From NCBI RefSeq assembly GCF_014842975.1, contig NZ_JACYXK010000028.1, positions 186,001 to 250,000 on the forward strand: a DNA stretch of 64,000 bases, read 5' to 3'. Made by a program: the position numbers and the translations under genes. Shown piece after piece: positions 47,837 through 54,978 of the stretch (position 1 is the first letter of the stretch; the number at the start of each line of letters is the position of its first letter). This DNA comes from Rhodanobacter sp. DHB23 (GTDB lineage: Bacteria; Pseudomonadota; Gammaproteobacteria; Xanthomonadales; Rhodanobacteraceae). The notes beneath the pieces are model-generated. The model did not search any database. It saw only the letters and a list, made by a program, of their open reading frames with translations, and was not told the origin of the DNA.

Positions 47837-48739
47837 TTAAAAAGCTTCTTTACCCTTACAAGAAGCGCGAAGCGCATCTAGTTCAGCACGGTTCTGAAGG
47901 ATTATCTGACGTCGCGAAGGTGGAAGTAGATCAGTGGAAATATCGAGTCCATAGTGGCGCTCGAAGTACCAGGTCATGCACAGCCGCATCGAGATTCCGA
48001 TGGATCCATCTTCCATCCCGTAGTCCATCTCGATTGCCTGACGCTGGGAGTCCGACAAGTCCGGGTGTGGCGCCAGTCGCATCGTGAACATTTCCTGCCA
48101 TTCGCGATCGACTGCGGGATCGATGGTCGATGGGCGGTGGTTGCCGATCGACAAGATCCTCGCCAACACAAAATCGGTAAACGTCGATCGATTGAAGCAC
48201 CAGCTTCGCGCATGCCAACGGGCGCCGTCATAGACGAGAGCATGTGGAGCGATCCATCGCAGGATGGGCTCTGGCGTAGACATGGACTGGTAGCGGATTT
48301 CGATTGCCCGGCGTTTCCGGATCGCTGATACGACCGGTCGCAGAGTCCCGTTGTCCAGTCGACGTCGAACGCGCGGCATCACCGCATGCGTTGGCATATG
48401 ACCCAGCCAGGACTCGCTCGAATCGATCGCATCATCAGCAAGCAGCAGCAGCTGTGTCAGGTACTGGCGTGCATCGGGCACCGTGACCTTCGGTACGAAC
48501 CGTGGCGTGGCAACAAATGCCTTCTTGACCCGGTCGTACTCCAAGTTCCCCGGTGCCAACTCGAGATATTTCGCGATGTCGTCCGAGGCCTGCGGAGCGG
48601 AAATCCCGAAGCGTGACATCAGGTCGTTCCGAGTCAGCTCTTCTTCCCAGTAGAGCCGGTTCTCGATGAAGGCGTAACGCTGGCGCTGGCTCCAAGTGCG
48701 AGTGGCGAGCGGAGGGCCGGGCTGGGGGGTGTCGGTCAT
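47837..48739 (-). CDS. WYL-domain transcriptional regulator, CapW/BrxR-like
   Basis: 300 residues. An amino-terminal winged helix (WSQRQRYAFIENRLYWEEELTRNDLMSRFGISAPQ contains it) is followed by a WYL domain (RRAIEIRYQSMSTPEPILRWIAPHALVYDGARWHARSWC) and a WCX-like end. CapW and BrxR proteins repress CBASS, BREX and other defence operons until infection. It is transcribed away from the CBASS operon, with a palindrome in the shared 212-base gap. The ATG at 48739 is preferred over the in-frame ATG at 48814, which would overlap the promoter region; neither has a strong ribosome site. Confidence 0.85.
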   Translation of the reverse strand: MTDTPQPGPPLATRTWSQRQRYAFIENRLYWEEELTRNDLMSRFGISAPQASDDIAKYLELAPGNLEYDRVKKAFVATPRFVPKVTVPDARQYLTQLLLLADDAIDSSESWLGHMPTHAVMPRVRRRLDNGTLRPVVSAIRKRRAIEIRYQSMSTPEPILRWIAPHALVYDGARWHARSWCFNRSTFTDFVLARILSIGNHRPSTIDPAVDREWQEMFTMRLAPHPDLSDSQRQAIEMDYGMEDGSIGISMRLCMTWYFERHYGLDISTDLLPPSRRQIILQNRAELDALRASCKGKEAF

Positions 48740-48796
48740 GGAGGGGAGCGGCGAGGGAAAAGAAATAGTATGGCCGAACGAACGAATGAAAGTTTC

Positions 48797-48825
48797 TTGA
48801 CTCTGGTTCAGCATGTTGTTAAGTT
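48797..48825 (+). promoter_or_regulatory. Possible promoter of the CBASS operon
   Basis: TTGACT at 48797-48802 is a good -35 box; with a 17-base spacer the -10 position is TAAGTT at 48820-48825, a weak match. It points toward the DUF2188 gene and overlaps the left arm of the palindrome at 48824-48850, so a bound regulator would block it. Confidence 0.4.
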
Positions 48826-48850
48826 GGCAGTCGTGAGGCGTGACTGCTAA
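48824..48850. promoter_or_regulatory. Candidate CapW operator
   Basis: Palindrome TTGGCAGTC, nine bases, GACTGCTAA; eight of nine arm positions pair. It is in the gap between the divergent WYL regulator and the CBASS operon and covers the possible -10 box. CapW/BrxR dimers are known to bind inverted repeats of about this size. Confidence 0.6.
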
Positions 48851-48951: not shown

Positions 48952-49173
48952 ATGAGTAAGAACGTTCACATCGTGCCTCACGACAGTGGCTGGGCCGTTC
49001 GCATCGAGGGCAACGATCGGGCTTCTTCGGTTTACTCCACTCAGCGCGAGGCGACCCAGGCCGGTCGCGACCGCGCACGCCGCGATGGGGTCGAAATCCT
49101 GATCCACGGTGAAGACGGTCGCATCCGAGCACGTGACAGCTACGGCAATGACCCCTTTCCGCCGAAGGGCTGA
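48952..49173 (+). CDS. DUF2188 domain protein
   Basis: 73 residues, the whole length of a DUF2188 domain: HIVPHDSGWAVRIEGNDRAS, then YSTQREATQAGRDRARRDGVEILIHGEDGRIRARDSYGNDP, with the typical DG-I closing motif. These small basic domains are widespread but of unknown function, often near nucleases and defence genes. It is the first gene of the CBASS operon, 15 bases before the ATPase gene. AGGAAG lies just upstream of the ATG. Confidence 0.85.
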   Translation: MSKNVHIVPHDSGWAVRIEGNDRASSVYSTQREATQAGRDRARRDGVEILIHGEDGRIRARDSYGNDPFPPKG

Positions 49174-49188
49174 CCCGACGAGACCACT

Positions 49189-50118
49189 ATGAAGAATCCT
49201 GCCTTACAGCTGGTTACGCCCGCGGACCTCCCGCGTGGCATCCATGCTATTCGCGCTCTGCCCGATGCCGAGCTCTCCACACTGTGGGACAGCATCATCG
49301 TCCCCGCCCAGCTCAAGGATCGCCTCCTCTCGCAGGCGCTCTTGAACTACACCCTGCGCCCCAACATCTCGCGCAACGATGTCCCGTTGCACGGGGTCAT
49401 CTTGCTGGTCGGCGTGCCGGGCACAGGCAAGACGTCGCTGGCGAGAGGCCTTGCAAGCAAGCTTGCTGCCTCGCTCAAGCCCTCCGGGCAGACATTCCGT
49501 CTCGTCGAAGTCGACCCGCACGCGCTGACCAGCTCAGCGATGGGTAAGACCCAGCGCGCTGTTTCCGAGCTGTTCTCGCAGACGATCTCGGAGCATGCCG
49601 CCAATGGTCCGACGATAGTGTTGTTGGACGAAGTGGAGACGCTGGCGGCGGATCGCGCGAAGCTTAGCCTGGAGGCCAACCCCGTGGACATCCATCGCGC
49701 CACCGACGCGGTGCTTGTGCAACTAGACGCCCTTGCCGCCTCGCATCCCAACCTGCTCTTCATCGCGACCAGCAACTTCCCGCAGGCGATCGATGACGCT
49801 TTCACCTCGCGCTGCGATCTGGTGATCGATGTCCCGCTTCCGGCGGCCGATGCGGTCGCAAAAATTCTGGATAGTTGTCTGAGCGCAATCGCGCAGAAAT
49901 TCCCCAGGGTCGGCAAGCTCACCCAAGCAGGCGGATTTGCCGATGTGGCGCGGACGGCTGTGGGTCTGGACGGCCGCGCCATTCGTAAGCTTGTCGTTAG
50001 CGCGATGGCAATGCGCAAGGAAACCGCCCTCGACCCCAACCAGCTCTCGCTCTCAGATTTGCAGTCCGCAGTCGCTCAGGTGCAGGCCTCACGTCTTTCC
50101 GGCAAGGGGCATCCATGA
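49189..50118 (+). CDS. TRIP13/Pch2-like AAA+ ATPase of type III CBASS
   Basis: 309 residues. Walker A GVPGTGKTS at residues 75-83, Walker B IVLLDE at 143-148, sensor-1 TSN at 194-196, and an arginine finger in FTSRCD (R208). The context marks it as the TRIP13-type ATPase (Cap6) that remodels HORMA proteins, releasing them from the CD-NTase to switch signalling off. It overlaps the next gene by four bases. Confidence 0.87.
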   Translation: MKNPALQLVTPADLPRGIHAIRALPDAELSTLWDSIIVPAQLKDRLLSQALLNYTLRPNISRNDVPLHGVILLVGVPGTGKTSLARGLASKLAASLKPSGQTFRLVEVDPHALTSSAMGKTQRAVSELFSQTISEHAANGPTIVLLDEVETLAADRAKLSLEANPVDIHRATDAVLVQLDALAASHPNLLFIATSNFPQAIDDAFTSRCDLVIDVPLPAADAVAKILDSCLSAIAQKFPRVGKLTQAGGFADVARTAVGLDGRAIRKLVVSAMAMRKETALDPNQLSLSDLQSAVAQVQASRLSGKGHP

Positions 50119-50588
50119 GCACGGTAGCCCGGCGTGACTTTCGCAGCACGCCACATCGCGATGCTCATCAGACCTGGGCCGACATCGTCGCGCTGCTCAC
50201 CGCAGGTGAGAGCGGTGGGACGGCCAGGCCGGACTTGATGGCTGTTGCCGGCGTGGCCAGCAGCGTGATTGCTGATCAGGGGCCACGGGACGTGCCCATC
50301 GTCGTCACGTGCGATGGGCCGCGCACGCGCATCTACTGTCATTACGACGATGACGCGCTGGACGAATCGAACGGCAACGAAGTTGCGCTGGGGTTCGATC
50401 CGCTGAAGGGCGACTGGCGGGTGTCGCTGCCGGTCGATGCTGAGGATCTGGATTGGGTGACCGCCGCCTTGAAGGCGAAGTCCACGCGAGTCGTGGCTCG
50501 TGACCGAGATGAAACGATCGAAACGTCGACCGCCAGCAGTGCCGTTGCACGTTTTGTCGTGGATGTAGAAGGGTTCATGAAGTCATGA
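50115..50588 (+). CDS. Unrecognised protein in the CBASS operon, possibly a second HORMA-like protein
   Basis: 157 residues with no motif I recognise. It has mixed alpha/beta character: [19 protein letters not shown], then a [17 protein letters not shown] segment and a carboxy end [14 protein letters not shown]. It sits between the ATPase and HORMA genes, overlapping both by four bases (ATGA at each side), so it is made in step with them. Some type III CBASS operons carry two HORMA proteins; this could be a highly divergent second one, or an immunity/adaptor factor. That is inference from position only. Confidence 0.6.
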
Positions 50589-51088
50589 CAACCGTAGCCG
50601 CCTATACCCGCACGCACTCGGTCACCTACGTTGCCGACAACGTGCTCAAAAGCCTCAAGGACATCATCCGCTTGAGCGGAATGGATCCGTCCAAGCTGGT
50701 CGACGATTGGGACAGCACCCACCGTGCCATGCGCACTTGGCTGGACAGCGAACACCTCGAACGCGTCGTCTTAGAGGTATACAACCCCTACACCAATGCT
50801 CTCGTGGTGCGCTGGGATGTCGACATCGTGTACCAGTGGGCAGCAGGCGGCGACGGCAGCTTCTACACCGATACCGAGCAGCTGCGCTACCACATCCGCA
50901 AGGCCGGCATCGCGCCGGCCGATGCCGAGTACAGCATCCTGCTGCAGAACAAGCCGGGACGGCCGGAAGTTCCCGGCTGGAGCCCTGTGAGTTTCCGGTC
51001 GACCAGTGGCCTGGTCCGCCAGAGCTTGGGTTCAACGATCGAGCACAGCGGTCTGGGAGCGAACGCCGCCTATTGGAGGAGCGCCTGA
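50585..51088 (+). CDS. Bacterial HORMA domain protein (HORMA1 type)
   Basis: 167 residues. [32 protein letters not shown] and the following [31 protein letters not shown] match the bacterial HORMA family (bacHORMA_1) of CBASS operons. In type III systems the HORMA protein senses a target peptide, adopts its closed form, binds the CD-NTase and turns on nucleotide synthesis. It overlaps the CD-NTase gene (TGATG). Confidence 0.85.
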
Positions 51089-51993
51089 TGCTCACCATTG
51101 AAGAAGCATTCCGCAAGTTCAAGAGCCGGCTGGAACTCAACGACCGCGAGCAGCAGAACGCGAGCAAGCGGCACACCGAAGTGCGCGAACACATCCGCTC
51201 TCGATTCACGATCGCAGACGATTTCCTCACTGGCTCCTATCGCCGCCATACTAAGACCAAGCCCCTGAAGGACATCGACATCTTCTTCGTTCTGGCCGAC
51301 TCGCAGCGGGCGGAGTATCGAGACAAGGCGCCCAGTGTCGTCCTTCAGGATTTCCATAATGCGCTGGTTGACAAGTACGGCGACGCAGCTGTCAGCAAAC
51401 AGGGGCGTTCGGTGTGCGTCGATTTTGGCGTGGTCGTCGATGCAGACGACAATACCGATTACCGCGTGGTGAGCGTAGACGTGGTACCGGCCTTCACGGC
51501 CGGCAGCGACTACGAGATTCCCAACGTCGACACCGGCAAATGGATGAAGACTAATCCGAAGATCCATGCCGAAAAGGCCACCCAGGCGAACAAGAACTAC
51601 GATGGTGAATGGAAAGGCCTCGTGCGGATGGCCAAGTACTGGAACAACAACCCAGGCCACGGTACGGAAAAGCCGGTCAAGCCGTCGTTCCTAATCGAGG
51701 TTATGGCCCTACAGGTCTTGCACGGCGGCTGGGGCGGACGCTTCGACTACGAAATGCAAGCCTTGTTTTCCACGCTCGCCGATCGGATAACGGACGAATG
51801 GTCAGACCCGGCCGGACTCGGATCGCCGATCAGCAACGGCATGGACGCTGCCCGCAAGCAGCGGGCGCGAGACCTGCTCGTGGCTGCCAGCCAGCAAGCT
51901 TCGGGTGCCATTGATTTGGTTCGCAAGGGTCGGACCGGGGATGCCCTGAAAGCGTGGCGGAATCTGTTCGGACCGAAGTTCCCCTTGACCTGA
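51088..51993 (+). CDS. CD-NTase (cGAS/DncV-like nucleotidyltransferase)
   Basis: 301 residues. GSYRR at residues 49-53 with D62 and D64 (KDIDIFFVL) forms the GS-x(n)-D-x-D metal site, and a third acidic residue is D131 (VSVDVVPAF). This is the enzyme that makes the cyclic di- or trinucleotide second messenger after phage infection. The HORMA-linked CD-NTases of type III CBASS mostly belong to clades C and D; which clade this is cannot be told by eye. It starts within the HORMA stop and lies ten bases before the effector gene. Confidence 0.9.
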
Positions 51994-52003
51994 GGCCGCG
52001 CAG

Positions 52004-52768
52004 ATGACCACAGATACTGATGTTCCGATGACTGCGCTGCAAGCACCATCCGAAGACGTTTCTTGGATGAAGCAAGCGTTCGCACTGGTGCAATCGAACC
52101 TCGCTGCGGCCATGAAGCTAGCCTCCCAGTCCATCAGCCATGGTGGCGTGATGGGCTCAGTAAACGAAGACCACTGGACGGAGCTGTTCCGGAGCTATCT
52201 GCCGAATCGCTACGATGTGGCTACGGGGATCGTGATCGACAGTCGGGGACACCGCAGCGAGCAGATCGACCTCGTGATCTTCGACCGTCATTTCACGCCT
52301 ACCTTGCTCGACCAGAAAAATCATCGCTACATCCCGGCAGAAGCCGTGTATGGGGTATTTGAATGCAAGCCGACGATCAACAAGGACTATCTCCAATACG
52401 CTGAGAAAAAGGCTATGTCGGTCCGCTCAATGCATAGGACCTCGGTGGCGATTGCCCATGCTGGGGGCACCTACCTGCCCAAGCCACACTTTCGCATCGT
52501 CGCTGGGATACTGGCGCCAAGTGTTAGTTGGACTGACGGTCTCGGAGAGGCGTTCGAGCGCAACCTTTCGGGGGATCCCGACGCCATGCTCGATTGCGGC
52601 GTCGCACTCGATCAAGGCTGCTTTGATCGACACGAAGGTGTTCTTTCGATTGCGAACGAACAAGGGGCGCTAATGTATTTCCTGTTTCGACTACTTGCGC
52701 GCCTGCAGTCACTGGGAACCGTCCCCGCGATTGACTGGACGGCTTACAGCCGCATCATCCGACCTTGA
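52004..52768 (+). CDS. DUF6602-like protein, predicted PD-(D/E)XK nuclease effector
   Basis: 254 residues. The middle part reads as a restriction-nuclease-type fold: E60 (DHWTELFRSYLPNRY), D89 in EQIDLVIFD, and E120-x-K122 in YGVFECKPTI, i.e. the E...D...ExK arrangement. The family resembles DUF6602. The carboxy ~100 residues (after DYLQYAEKKA) have no known motif and could be the messenger-binding part. As the last gene, ten bases after the CD-NTase, it occupies the usual effector slot of CBASS, where a cyclic nucleotide switches on a killing enzyme. It replaces the NucC nuclease commonly found in type III systems. Confidence 0.75.
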   Translation: MTTDTDVPMTALQAPSEDVSWMKQAFALVQSNLAAAMKLASQSISHGGVMGSVNEDHWTELFRSYLPNRYDVATGIVIDSRGHRSEQIDLVIFDRHFTPTLLDQKNHRYIPAEAVYGVFECKPTINKDYLQYAEKKAMSVRSMHRTSVAIAHAGGTYLPKPHFRIVAGILAPSVSWTDGLGEAFERNLSGDPDAMLDCGVALDQGCFDRHEGVLSIANEQGALMYFLFRLLARLQSLGTVPAIDWTAYSRIIRP

Positions 52769-52903: not shown

Positions 52904-53989
52904 CTAATCCTCAAGCAAACGTGCCGCAGGATTGCTGGCAGCTCCACCTGTCTGAAAATACCCCATCACGCTGGCCACCGCGCGGTGCTCGGTCATCGCC
53001 ATGATGGCCGGTAGCGCCACGCCCTGACGGCTCGCTTCGGTTACGAATCCCGACCGCAGGCTGTGCCCGCCAAAGTCCCCTTCCAGGCCCGCGAGCCTCG
53101 CCCGGCGCTGCACGATCTCGCCCACCGCGGCCGGCGATAGGGCAGGGCCGACCCGGTGTTTCCACAGCCGCCGAAATATCGCCCCTTCGGAAATCTCGCT
53201 GGCGGCCAGCCACGCCTCAAGCGCTTGAGCCGCCCGATCGAGAATGGGTTTGTCCGGTGTCGAGGACGCGGTAACACCGGACTGCTGGGTCTTGCTGTGT
53301 TCCAGGCGATAGATGTAGCCCTGTGGGCCGATCCGGCGCAGATCGCGCAGATCGGCCGCCGCGATCTCGCTGCGCCGGCGCCCGCCGCTGGCGAAACCGA
53401 AGCAGAGCAGGGCGCGGTCGCGCAGGCCTTCCAGGCTGTCGTCGCAGGTAGTCAGCATCGCCTCGAGCTCGGCCAAGGTAATGGCGGTTTTCTTACGCGG
53501 CCGTACGCCGCGTTTCACGGCTGCTCGGGCGGCACGGCTCAGCACCGTGCGAATCGCCGGTTGCTCGCACGGGTTCGGCAGCTGCTTGAGTCGGTGCGCG
53601 GTCGACAGTACCGCGACGCGATGGCGTACCGTCGCCAGTGTCCACGGGCCGGGCTTGGCCTTGAGTTCGGCGGCCACCAGCGTCCGGTCCACGGCGGGCG
53701 GCAGCTCCCAGGCCAGTTCGCCTTCGGCCGAACGACGTAGGACGTGATCAACCACGAACTGCAGCACCGTGGCCTCCGGTACTGGCAGGGAGAACTCCAC
53801 GCCGTAGCGCGCCGCGTGCCAGCCGGCCCAGTAGCGCAGGGCGCTGGCGTAGCTGCGCGTGGTGTTGGCGGCGGCGGCTTCCGCCAGCAGTTCACGCACG
53901 GCATCGGCGGCCTGCTGCGCCAGCTGAATCGGCAGCATTAGGCTGGAGGCCGACTGGGCGAGGGTCGGAATCATGGAATTATCTTTCAT
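52904..53989 (-). CDS. Tyrosine recombinase (TnpS-like)
   Basis: 361 residues (or 356 from an ATG at 53974). The four core residues fit the tyrosine recombinase family: R205 in GRRRSE, H309 and R312 in GHSLRSGF, and H335 with Y344 nine residues later (HRAVASVMGYF). The amino domain (ANTTRSYASALRYWAGWHAA) is the SAM-like core-binding region. It is divergent from a KfrA/TnpT-like gene, the arrangement of tnpS and tnpT, the cointegrate-resolution genes of Tn4651-type Tn3-family transposons. No transposase gene is in the window, so it may serve an island-specific site instead. Confidence 0.85.
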   Translation of the reverse strand: MKDNSMIPTLAQSASSLMLPIQLAQQAADAVRELLAEAAAANTTRSYASALRYWAGWHAARYGVEFSLPVPEATVLQFVVDHVLRRSAEGELAWELPPAVDRTLVAAELKAKPGPWTLATVRHRVAVLSTAHRLKQLPNPCEQPAIRTVLSRAARAAVKRGVRPRKKTAITLAELEAMLTTCDDSLEGLRDRALLCFGFASGGRRRSEIAAADLRDLRRIGPQGYIYRLEHSKTQQSGVTASSTPDKPILDRAAQALEAWLAASEISEGAIFRRLWKHRVGPALSPAAVGEIVQRRARLAGLEGDFGGHSLRSGFVTEASRQGVALPAIMAMTEHRAVASVMGYFQTGGAASNPAARLLED

Positions 53990-54012: not shown

Positions 54013-54093
54013 TAGGGCATCTAGCCACGATAATCATCACTTATCGTGAGTACGAAACCAAGCGGGCAGGGCGCCGATCGAGGAGACCGAGGC

Positions 54094-54978
54094 ATGGCAC
54101 GCGGCATCACGCAGGACCAGGTCAACACCGCCGCCGACGCCCTCCTGGGCGCCGGCGAGAATCCGACCGTGGAAAAAGTGCGCGCCGCCCTCGGCACCGG
54201 CTCGCCGAACACCGTCACGCGCATGCTCGACACGTGGCGCAGCGGCTTGGCCGAGCGCCTGTGCAAAACGCTGCAACTGCCCGATCTTCCGCCGGAGGTG
54301 GGGCAGGCGATGACCACACTATGGCAGCTGGCCGTGGGACACGCGGAAGGCCTGCTCCAGACGCGACTGGCCGCGGAGCGAGCCGCCCTGACCGCGAACG
54401 AAACGCGGCTCGTCGAGGAACGCACGCGCTGGGCGGCGACGCTGGCCGAGGCCGAGACCGCCGTGGCCCAAGCGCAGACACGCCAGGCCCTGGCCGAGCA
54501 CGCCTGCGCCAACCTGGACGGCCAGCTCCGCGACAGCCACGCCCTGCGGGAGGATTTGATCCAGCAGCGGGATCGGTTGCAGGCGGTGGTTGATCGCGTC
54601 ACCCACGAGCTCGAGGCCCTCCAGGCCGACAAGACCGCCCGGCTCGCCGCGGCGGACCAGGAACGGGAGCGCACCGCGGCGCACCTGCGCGCCGTCGAAG
54701 ACCGCGCCCATCAGGAAATTGACCGCGCCCGACAAGAGACCAAACAGTGGCAGCACCGCCACGAAGCGGCCGAACGGAGCTATCGTGACGGGGGGCAGGC
54801 GCTTGAAGCGCGGTGCGAAGCATTGCAAAAGCAGTGGCAGCAGGCCGAGAAGGAGGTCGCGCGTCTCTCGGGGCACGTCGCGGCGCTTGAAACGTCGCTC
54901 GCCAAGGCCAGTGTCCGCCCGAAGGCTAAGGAGGCGCGGAGGTCGGCCAAGTCTTCGAAGACCGCCAAGGCCAAGTAA
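54094..54978 (+). CDS. KfrA/TnpT-like DNA-binding coiled-coil protein
   Basis: 294 residues. The amino-terminal ~50 are a KfrA-type DNA-binding domain (GITQDQVNTAADALLGAGEN and GTGSPNTVTRMLDTW), the rest is a long coiled coil rich in Ala, Glu, Gln and Arg, ending in a Lys-rich tail. KfrA and TnpT proteins bind DNA near replication or recombination sites; TnpT helps TnpS in resolution. The ATG at 54094 has GAGGAG nearby; a GTG at 54046 is possible but would reach the recombination-like site. Divergent from the recombinase. Confidence 0.83.
   Translation: MARGITQDQVNTAADALLGAGENPTVEKVRAALGTGSPNTVTRMLDTWRSGLAERLCKTLQLPDLPPEVGQAMTTLWQLAVGHAEGLLQTRLAAERAALTANETRLVEERTRWAATLAEAETAVAQAQTRQALAEHACANLDGQLRDSHALREDLIQQRDRLQAVVDRVTHELEALQADKTARLAAADQERERTAAHLRAVEDRAHQEIDRARQETKQWQHRHEAAERSYRDGGQALEARCEALQKQWQQAEKEVARLSGHVAALETSLAKASVRPKAKEARRSAKSSKTAKAK

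Follow-up and report, generated by a model that had tools for sequence, protein, structure and literature searches.

The capW–CBASS locus and its promoter region

The stretch of DNA analysed here (64,000 nt, referred to as the window) carries a CBASS operon and, in divergent orientation, a gene for a wHTH-WYL regulator (Table 1). CD-NTase, HORMA, TRIP13 and effector genes are all present in the operon, as in type III CBASS. The best solved relatives of the regulator are PDB entries 9c5g ('CapW', E 1.4e-62) and 7tb6 ('S. maltophilia CapW', 8.8e-61). Both assignments, CBASS for the operon and CapW relative for the regulator (E about 1e-61), agree with a sequence-only reading made earlier of this DNA. 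Exchange of R32, S42, Q45 and S47 in S. maltophilia CapW is described to abolish DNA binding (PMC9122588); these residues align to R37, S47, Q50 and S52 of the regulator in the window. Being a wHTH-WYL protein that is related to characterised CapW, keeps the DNA-binding residues and adjoins CBASS, it is called CapW in the following. Its reading frame is open from 48814; ATG 48739 is the likelier start because in homologues the RW motif follows some 15 residues after the start and because the upstream extension lies in other frames or is interrupted in relatives. Beyond the CBASS operon follow a tyrosine recombinase gene (52904-53989, minus strand) and a KfrA-like gene (54046-54978, plus strand), which suggests a mobile island.

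Table 1. Features of the capW–CBASS locus, in window coordinates
Feature	Position	Strand	Basis
capW, wHTH-WYL regulator, 300 aa from ATG 48739	47837..48739	-	WYL Pfam match, structure matches, alignments
Possible -10 (TACTAT) of the divergent capW promoter	48765..48770	-	sequence comparison; TACTA-like in L032, L033 and L034
Degenerate left half-site CGAACG, speculative	48775..48780	.	10 nt before AGTTTC; TGAACT in L032, CGAACT in L035
Conserved block AAAGTTTCTTGACTCTGGTTCA, candidate CapW contact region (weak)	48789..48810	.	alignment and family motif
Possible CBASS promoter TTGACT-N17-TAAGTT	48797..48825	+	sequence; layout alike in L032
CIRCE-like inverted repeat, candidate HrcA operator	48824..48850	.	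own-genome CIRCE pattern and profile score of 27.9
DUF2188 protein (PADLOC candidate PDC-S16), first operon gene	48952..49173	+	
TRIP13-like AAA ATPase	49189..50118	+	
HORMA protein (PADLOC PDLC00881)	50115..50588	+	
HORMA protein (Pfam bacHORMA_2)	50585..51088	+	
CD-NTase (CBASS oligonucleotide cyclase)	51088..51993	+	
NucC-type endonuclease effector (DUF6602)	52004..52768	+	

Between capW and the operon lies an inverted repeat, TTGGCAGTC-N9-GACTGCTAA, with its left arm at 48824-48832, its right arm at 48842-48850 and 8 of the 9 pairs complementary. The sequence-only reading had described this palindrome correctly, including its spacer and its location in the intergenic region that separates the WYL gene from the operon, and had interpreted it as the CapW operator covering the -10 of a TTGACT promoter. 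TTGACT is found at 48797-48802 and TAAGTT at 48820-48825. The repeat covers the final two bases of this possible -10, since TAAGTT, 17 nt past TTGACT, ends at 48825. To this extent the claimed overlap stood; the -10 itself is weak, as TAAGTT shares only 3 of its 6 bases with TATAAT and the promoter scanner made no call at 48797-48825. The locus with the most similar CapW (L032) shows the same layout, TTGACT-N17-TAAATT. A sigma-32 promoter was looked for by eye and none was found.

In order to assess the palindrome as such, we shuffled the 212-bp intergenic region with dinucleotide composition preserved and counted inverted repeats with 9-nt arms, at most one mismatch and a spacer of 0–20 nt. 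Repeats of equal quality occurred in 125 of 500 shuffles, although a spacer of exactly 9 nt was seen in only 8 of 500, and the 64-kb window contains 473 repeats of this kind. The palindrome is therefore not above chance in itself, and its significance alone was dropped as evidence.

A CIRCE-like element at the possible CBASS promoter

CIRCE is the DNA switch of the heat-shock repressor HrcA on chaperone genes. Its consensus is given as TTAGCACTC-[N9]-GAGTGCTAA in PMC545781, where rpoH of Geobacter sulfurreducens is also listed with a CIRCE. The palindrome has the same architecture of two 9-nt arms and a 9-nt spacer. Its arms correspond to those of CIRCE (TTAGCACTC / GAGTGCTAA), both in the rare CAGTC variant: the deviation from the consensus lies at the seventh base of each arm, CAGTC for CACTC. 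We searched the own genome (3.97 Mb) with the pattern TTRGCACTC-N9-GAGTGCTAA, allowing up to three mismatches, and obtained three places only: upstream of the RpoH ORF (C19:147710, 0 mismatches), upstream of the GroES ORF (C29:59402, 0 mismatches) and the CBASS promoter (2 mismatches with R at position 3). The reversed pattern, used as a control, gave no match in this genome at up to three mismatches. An hrcA gene is present (PF01628, E 2e-64). With a profile derived from 13 native groES/rpoH sites, CBASS sites excluded, the palindrome scored 27.9, within the range of the native sites (26.6–34.5). None of 400 shuffles matched this score (best shuffle 8.8), and the second-best score within the window was 5.9.

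How exceptional a third site of this type is was seen in a census of 230 genomes of the family with the pattern YTRGCASTC-N9-GASTGCYA, no mismatch being allowed. Matches were obtained in 225 of the 230 genomes, nearly all with one or two sites; the reversed pattern gave 5 matches in total. Among the matches listed, which run through G048 and comprise 76 sites, 69 were fetched and all 69 were found at groES (32) or rpoH (37); the other 7 lie in G018, G020 and G031. G020 and G031 (the genomes of loci L036 and L038) carry one groES and one rpoH CIRCE each, and G018 carries both and one more. Beyond G048 the sites were counted, and read only in G100, G101 and G209. CAGTC occurs in only 3 of the 138 native half-sites of the 69 groES/rpoH sites. 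Three CIRCE sites were present in just five of the 230 genomes (the own genome, G018, G100, G101 and G209), and the other 14 genomes from the genus are not among them.

The extra CIRCEs in G018 and G100 lie directly upstream of an ORF weakly similar to MBL defence proteins (RTasMBL, LmuA), which is followed by an E2/E1 protein that additionally contains a JAB domain in G100; the G100 operon includes an additional MBL protein, PDC-M48B. Its promoter core, TTGACA-N17-TATAGT followed by the CIRCE, has the layout proposed for CBASS in the window. The extra site in G209 (L200:6385-6411) lies 138 bp upstream of capH-capP and beside Wadjet JetC/JetD, and that in G101 (L199:7062-7088) is part of a genomic island, with an integrase, a HicB-like antitoxin and ORFs of no assigned function nearby. 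Thus, four of the five extra CIRCEs, the one in the window included, are at defence genes, a grouping made post hoc in which G018 and G100 share an operon type. CapP is encoded in 7 of the 230 genomes, and it was the G209 locus that was examined for CIRCE.

The extra CIRCEs directly 5′ of the MBL–E2/E1(/JAB) operons are perfect elements (L198:8555-8581 and L197:3098-3124). Among viral contigs, 104 stretches (L202-L305) carry an exact CIRCE, 13 of them with a GroES match and one (L218) with a weak CapH match; the CIRCE of L218 sits at a groES-groEL operon. No capW relative was found in the viral contigs.

Related capW loci and the possible binding site of CapW

Relatives were collected by running a CapW-relative profile on 84,980 species genomes and taking the best 80 loci. 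The five nearest CapW proteins among these are encoded at L032 (89% identical), L033 and L034 (75–77%), L035 (70%) and L036 (60–61%). Behind them lie different payloads: type III CBASS as in the window (L032); patatin, CD-NTase and E1-E2 with a JAB-like ORF (L033, which the ORFs of L034 resemble); a 2TM effector with two cyclases (L035); and DUF2188, patatin, CD-NTase, E1-E2 and JAB (L036). A DUF2188 gene heads the operon in the window, in L032 (5572-5790) and in L036 (5584-5802). The payload behind it is type III in the first two but patatin/E1-E2/JAB in L036, so this gene appears to move together with the regulatory module.

At the same place as in the window, a palindrome is found in L032 (TTGGCAGTC-N9-GAGTGCCAG), L035 (TTGGCAGTC-N9-GAGTGCTAA) and L036 (TTGGCAGAC-N9-GACTGCCAA). 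A palindrome search across capW upstream regions otherwise returned mostly repeats at chance level. When 88 of these regions were scored with the CIRCE profile (L070 was dropped as too short), L035 reached 30.1, the window 27.9, L032 24.4 and L036 19.5, whereas the next best region reached 6.0; for each of the four loci, none of 400 shuffles attained the observed score. CIRCE-like sites are therefore present in 4 of 88 regions, all among the six closest loci, and in 0 of the 82 others. The element is common to capW loci with type III (L032), patatin/E1-E2/JAB (L036) and 2TM (L035) CBASS. It follows one CapW clade rather than the CBASS core: no CIRCE was found at a related core on a Polaromonas plasmid (L375:1419-2617), in which the place of capW is taken by genes for an HTH regulator and an ImmA/IrrE peptidase, suggesting that the regulator was exchanged. 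Arms and N9 spacing are kept in the four capW loci although spacer and flanks have changed. This conservation, together with the shuffled profile scores, makes it very improbable that the palindrome is a chance or vestigial structure with no operator function, as the shuffles of the intergenic region could have been taken to indicate.

All seven genomes of L032-L038 encode hrcA and match the CIRCE pattern. Besides sites at groES and rpoH, the search hit two CBASS promoters, those of L035 (1 mismatch) and L032 (3 mismatches), and two further places (L144 and L146); with 4 mismatches, the L036 site falls outside a search at up to three. Native groES or rpoH CIRCEs with a CAGTC half-site occur in G600, G601 and G606, and CAGTC or CAGAC is found in 6 of the 8 half-sites of the four capW-CBASS elements. 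Judged by these bases, the capW-CBASS element is not simply a standard CIRCE. Because CAGTC is rare natively yet common at these elements, the sites may be weak for HrcA or be read by something other than HrcA.

From the CIRCE match, its rarity in the genome, the resident hrcA and its recurrence at related capW-CBASS promoters with different payloads, we conclude that the palindrome is probably a CIRCE-type HrcA operator placed on a CapW-flanked CBASS promoter. Besides the seventh-base variant, several observations count against this assignment. The restriction to one clade, with the element at 4 of the 6 nearest capW loci and at 0 of 82 others, would be expected of a CapW operator too; furthermore, L033, L034 and the Polaromonas core are devoid of CIRCE, and published CapW sites likewise overlap the -10.

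The assignment made in the sequence-only reading, that a CapW dimer on the -10/start region blocks CBASS until infection, has to be weighed against this. The site sits over the -10 beside capW, as described for three CapW systems in PMC9122588, and the resemblance of the layout to those promoters that had been pointed out is real. The element is limited to a single CapW clade across changing payloads, the altered base is found in each of the arms, in keeping with a symmetric reader, and the residues tested in S. maltophilia are conserved. However, CapW of L033 and L034 is 75–76% identical and its recognition helix (ISAPQASDDVARY or ISGPQASDDVARY) is nearly the same as in the window (ISAPQASDDIAKY), yet these loci lack the palindrome and their CIRCE scores are at chance level (reached by 216 of 400 and 29 of 400 shuffles). 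The arms and the N9 spacer are those of CIRCE, and the genome has just two other CIRCE-like places; this likeness exceeds what CapW binding alone predicts.

We also derived a motif for the CapW family by expectation-maximisation with a palindromic model from 80 more distant CapW-family regions, the window, L032-L036, L070 and L082 being left out. The search converged repeatedly on CAGAAACTaTaCG / CGtAtAGTTTCTG, with the core GAAACT-N10-AGTTTC. In 75 of the 80 regions (W22) or 77 of the 80 (W26), which are the same regions used for training, the best score was reached by at most 1 of 60 shuffles. This core is common to upstream regions of the CapW/BrxR family (L037-L111 and others) in Alphaproteobacteria, Planctomycetes and Gammaproteobacteria. 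It does not match the palindrome, over which the W26 model scores between -45.5 and -5.1. On these grounds the palindrome is unlikely to be the operator of CapW, and that part of the earlier interpretation is not upheld.

A location further upstream is suggested by the conserved block. AGTTTC (48791-48796), a half-site of the family motif, lies inside AAAGTTTCTTGACTCTGGTTCA, the best conserved stretch of the region, in which AAAGTT and CT are invariant in 6 of 6 loci, L033 and L034 included; in the latter two, the sequence around AAAGTTTCTTG and the TTCA preceding it are retained. The block as capW coding sequence was ruled out, the frame varying among the loci or being stopped, and it is conserved as DNA rather than protein. 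The full motif does not reach significance in the window (p 0.11–0.15, best at 48799-48820 with W22 and 48797-48822 with W26), while in L035 the match CGAACT-N10-AGTTTC at the AGTTTC block gives p 0.02–0.06. The CapW site in the window is a weak candidate, since only L035 nears significance. That the block at 48789-48810 is a likelier contact region of CapW than the palindrome is, by sequence, weakly supported. For an Enterobacter plasmid locus with gene content like that of E. coli upec-117 (L147), the best motif match lies away from TATAAT and thus neither confirms nor refutes the motif against the published sites.

Alternatively, CapW of this clade would read the CIRCE-type site as well and compete with HrcA, the CAGTC arms being a compromise. 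The clade restriction, the G enriched at the seventh base of the capW-CBASS elements and the presence of an encoded HrcA would fit such sharing, but the arguments against CapW alone apply equally. In addition, half-site centres are 18 bp apart in CIRCE and 16 bp apart in the CapW-family motif, so that one rigid dimer would presumably need two geometries. We consider a shared operator quite unlikely, though less so than a chance repeat.

Proposed regulation and comparison with known systems

In published cases the signal of CapW is single-stranded DNA. HrcA activity requires GroE in the species studied, and GroE is titrated by non-native protein, as described in PMC6032397. If the palindrome is an HrcA operator, a protein-folding alarm as well as CapW may control this CBASS. 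HrcA with GroE would sit on the CIRCE over the -10/start region and block CBASS as long as the cell is not stressed; once non-native protein occupies GroE, HrcA would release the operator. CapW would be a second, separate lock, probably on the AGTTTC block at about 48789-48810 between the divergent promoters, and would repress both directions until its signal is met. The CIRCE would lie upstream of the presumed capW promoter, contact with which would not be required. Full CBASS expression would be expected only when the DNA-damage and/or the protein-folding alarm is raised.

More tentatively, and as a rather unlikely possibility, HrcA/GroE could alert anti-phage islands to infection or proteotoxic stress in parallel to the DNA-damage-sensing CapW, with CIRCE as a module that such islands have recruited repeatedly. 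Phage protein synthesis or chaperonin use would then titrate GroE, HrcA would leave CIRCE and CBASS would be derepressed; in relatives, the MBL-E2/E1/JAB operon and capH-capP would be derepressed likewise.

The proposed regulation bears on how abortive anti-phage systems are kept off and by which signals they are activated. CapW/BrxR, CapH-CapP and CapK-CapS are described to respond to DNA damage (PMC9122588, PMC9122589, PMC9122601, PMC13373217). A heat-shock operator at CBASS and other defence genes would, if confirmed, tie immunity to protein-folding stress, and GroE titration would become a directly testable infection signal. CIRCE and CapW are each already known; a CIRCE on an immune operon, or CBASS with HrcA or CIRCE, was not found in the literature searched, preprints and most subscription journals lying outside it.

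CapH+CapP and CapK+CapS (PMC13373217) resemble the proposed regulation in that immune operons are gated by stress signals, but these are DNA-damage signals, and the terms 'HrcA' and 'heat shock' are absent from the main text of that paper. At BrxR promoters (PMC9122589, PMC9122601), too, a WYL protein represses a defence island and a pseudo-palindrome is present, which in Acinetobacter is reported as 10-5-10 and overlaps the -35; these promoters belong to a different system, and the parts of these papers considered here describe no heat-shock operator for BrxR. With CapW-regulated CBASS promoters as described in PMC9122588 the window shares the divergent capW/CBASS arrangement and a palindrome over the possible -10, whereas its palindrome is CIRCE-like and the likely CapW contact would lie further upstream. 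The closest likeness in the site itself is to the CIRCE/HrcA operator: 9-N9-9 architecture, 15 of 18 arm bases (16 with G at position 3, a base that the own groES site also has), a resident hrcA and a promoter location. It differs from that operator in carrying CAGTC for CACTC in both arms and in being placed on an anti-phage operon instead of a chaperone gene or rpoH.
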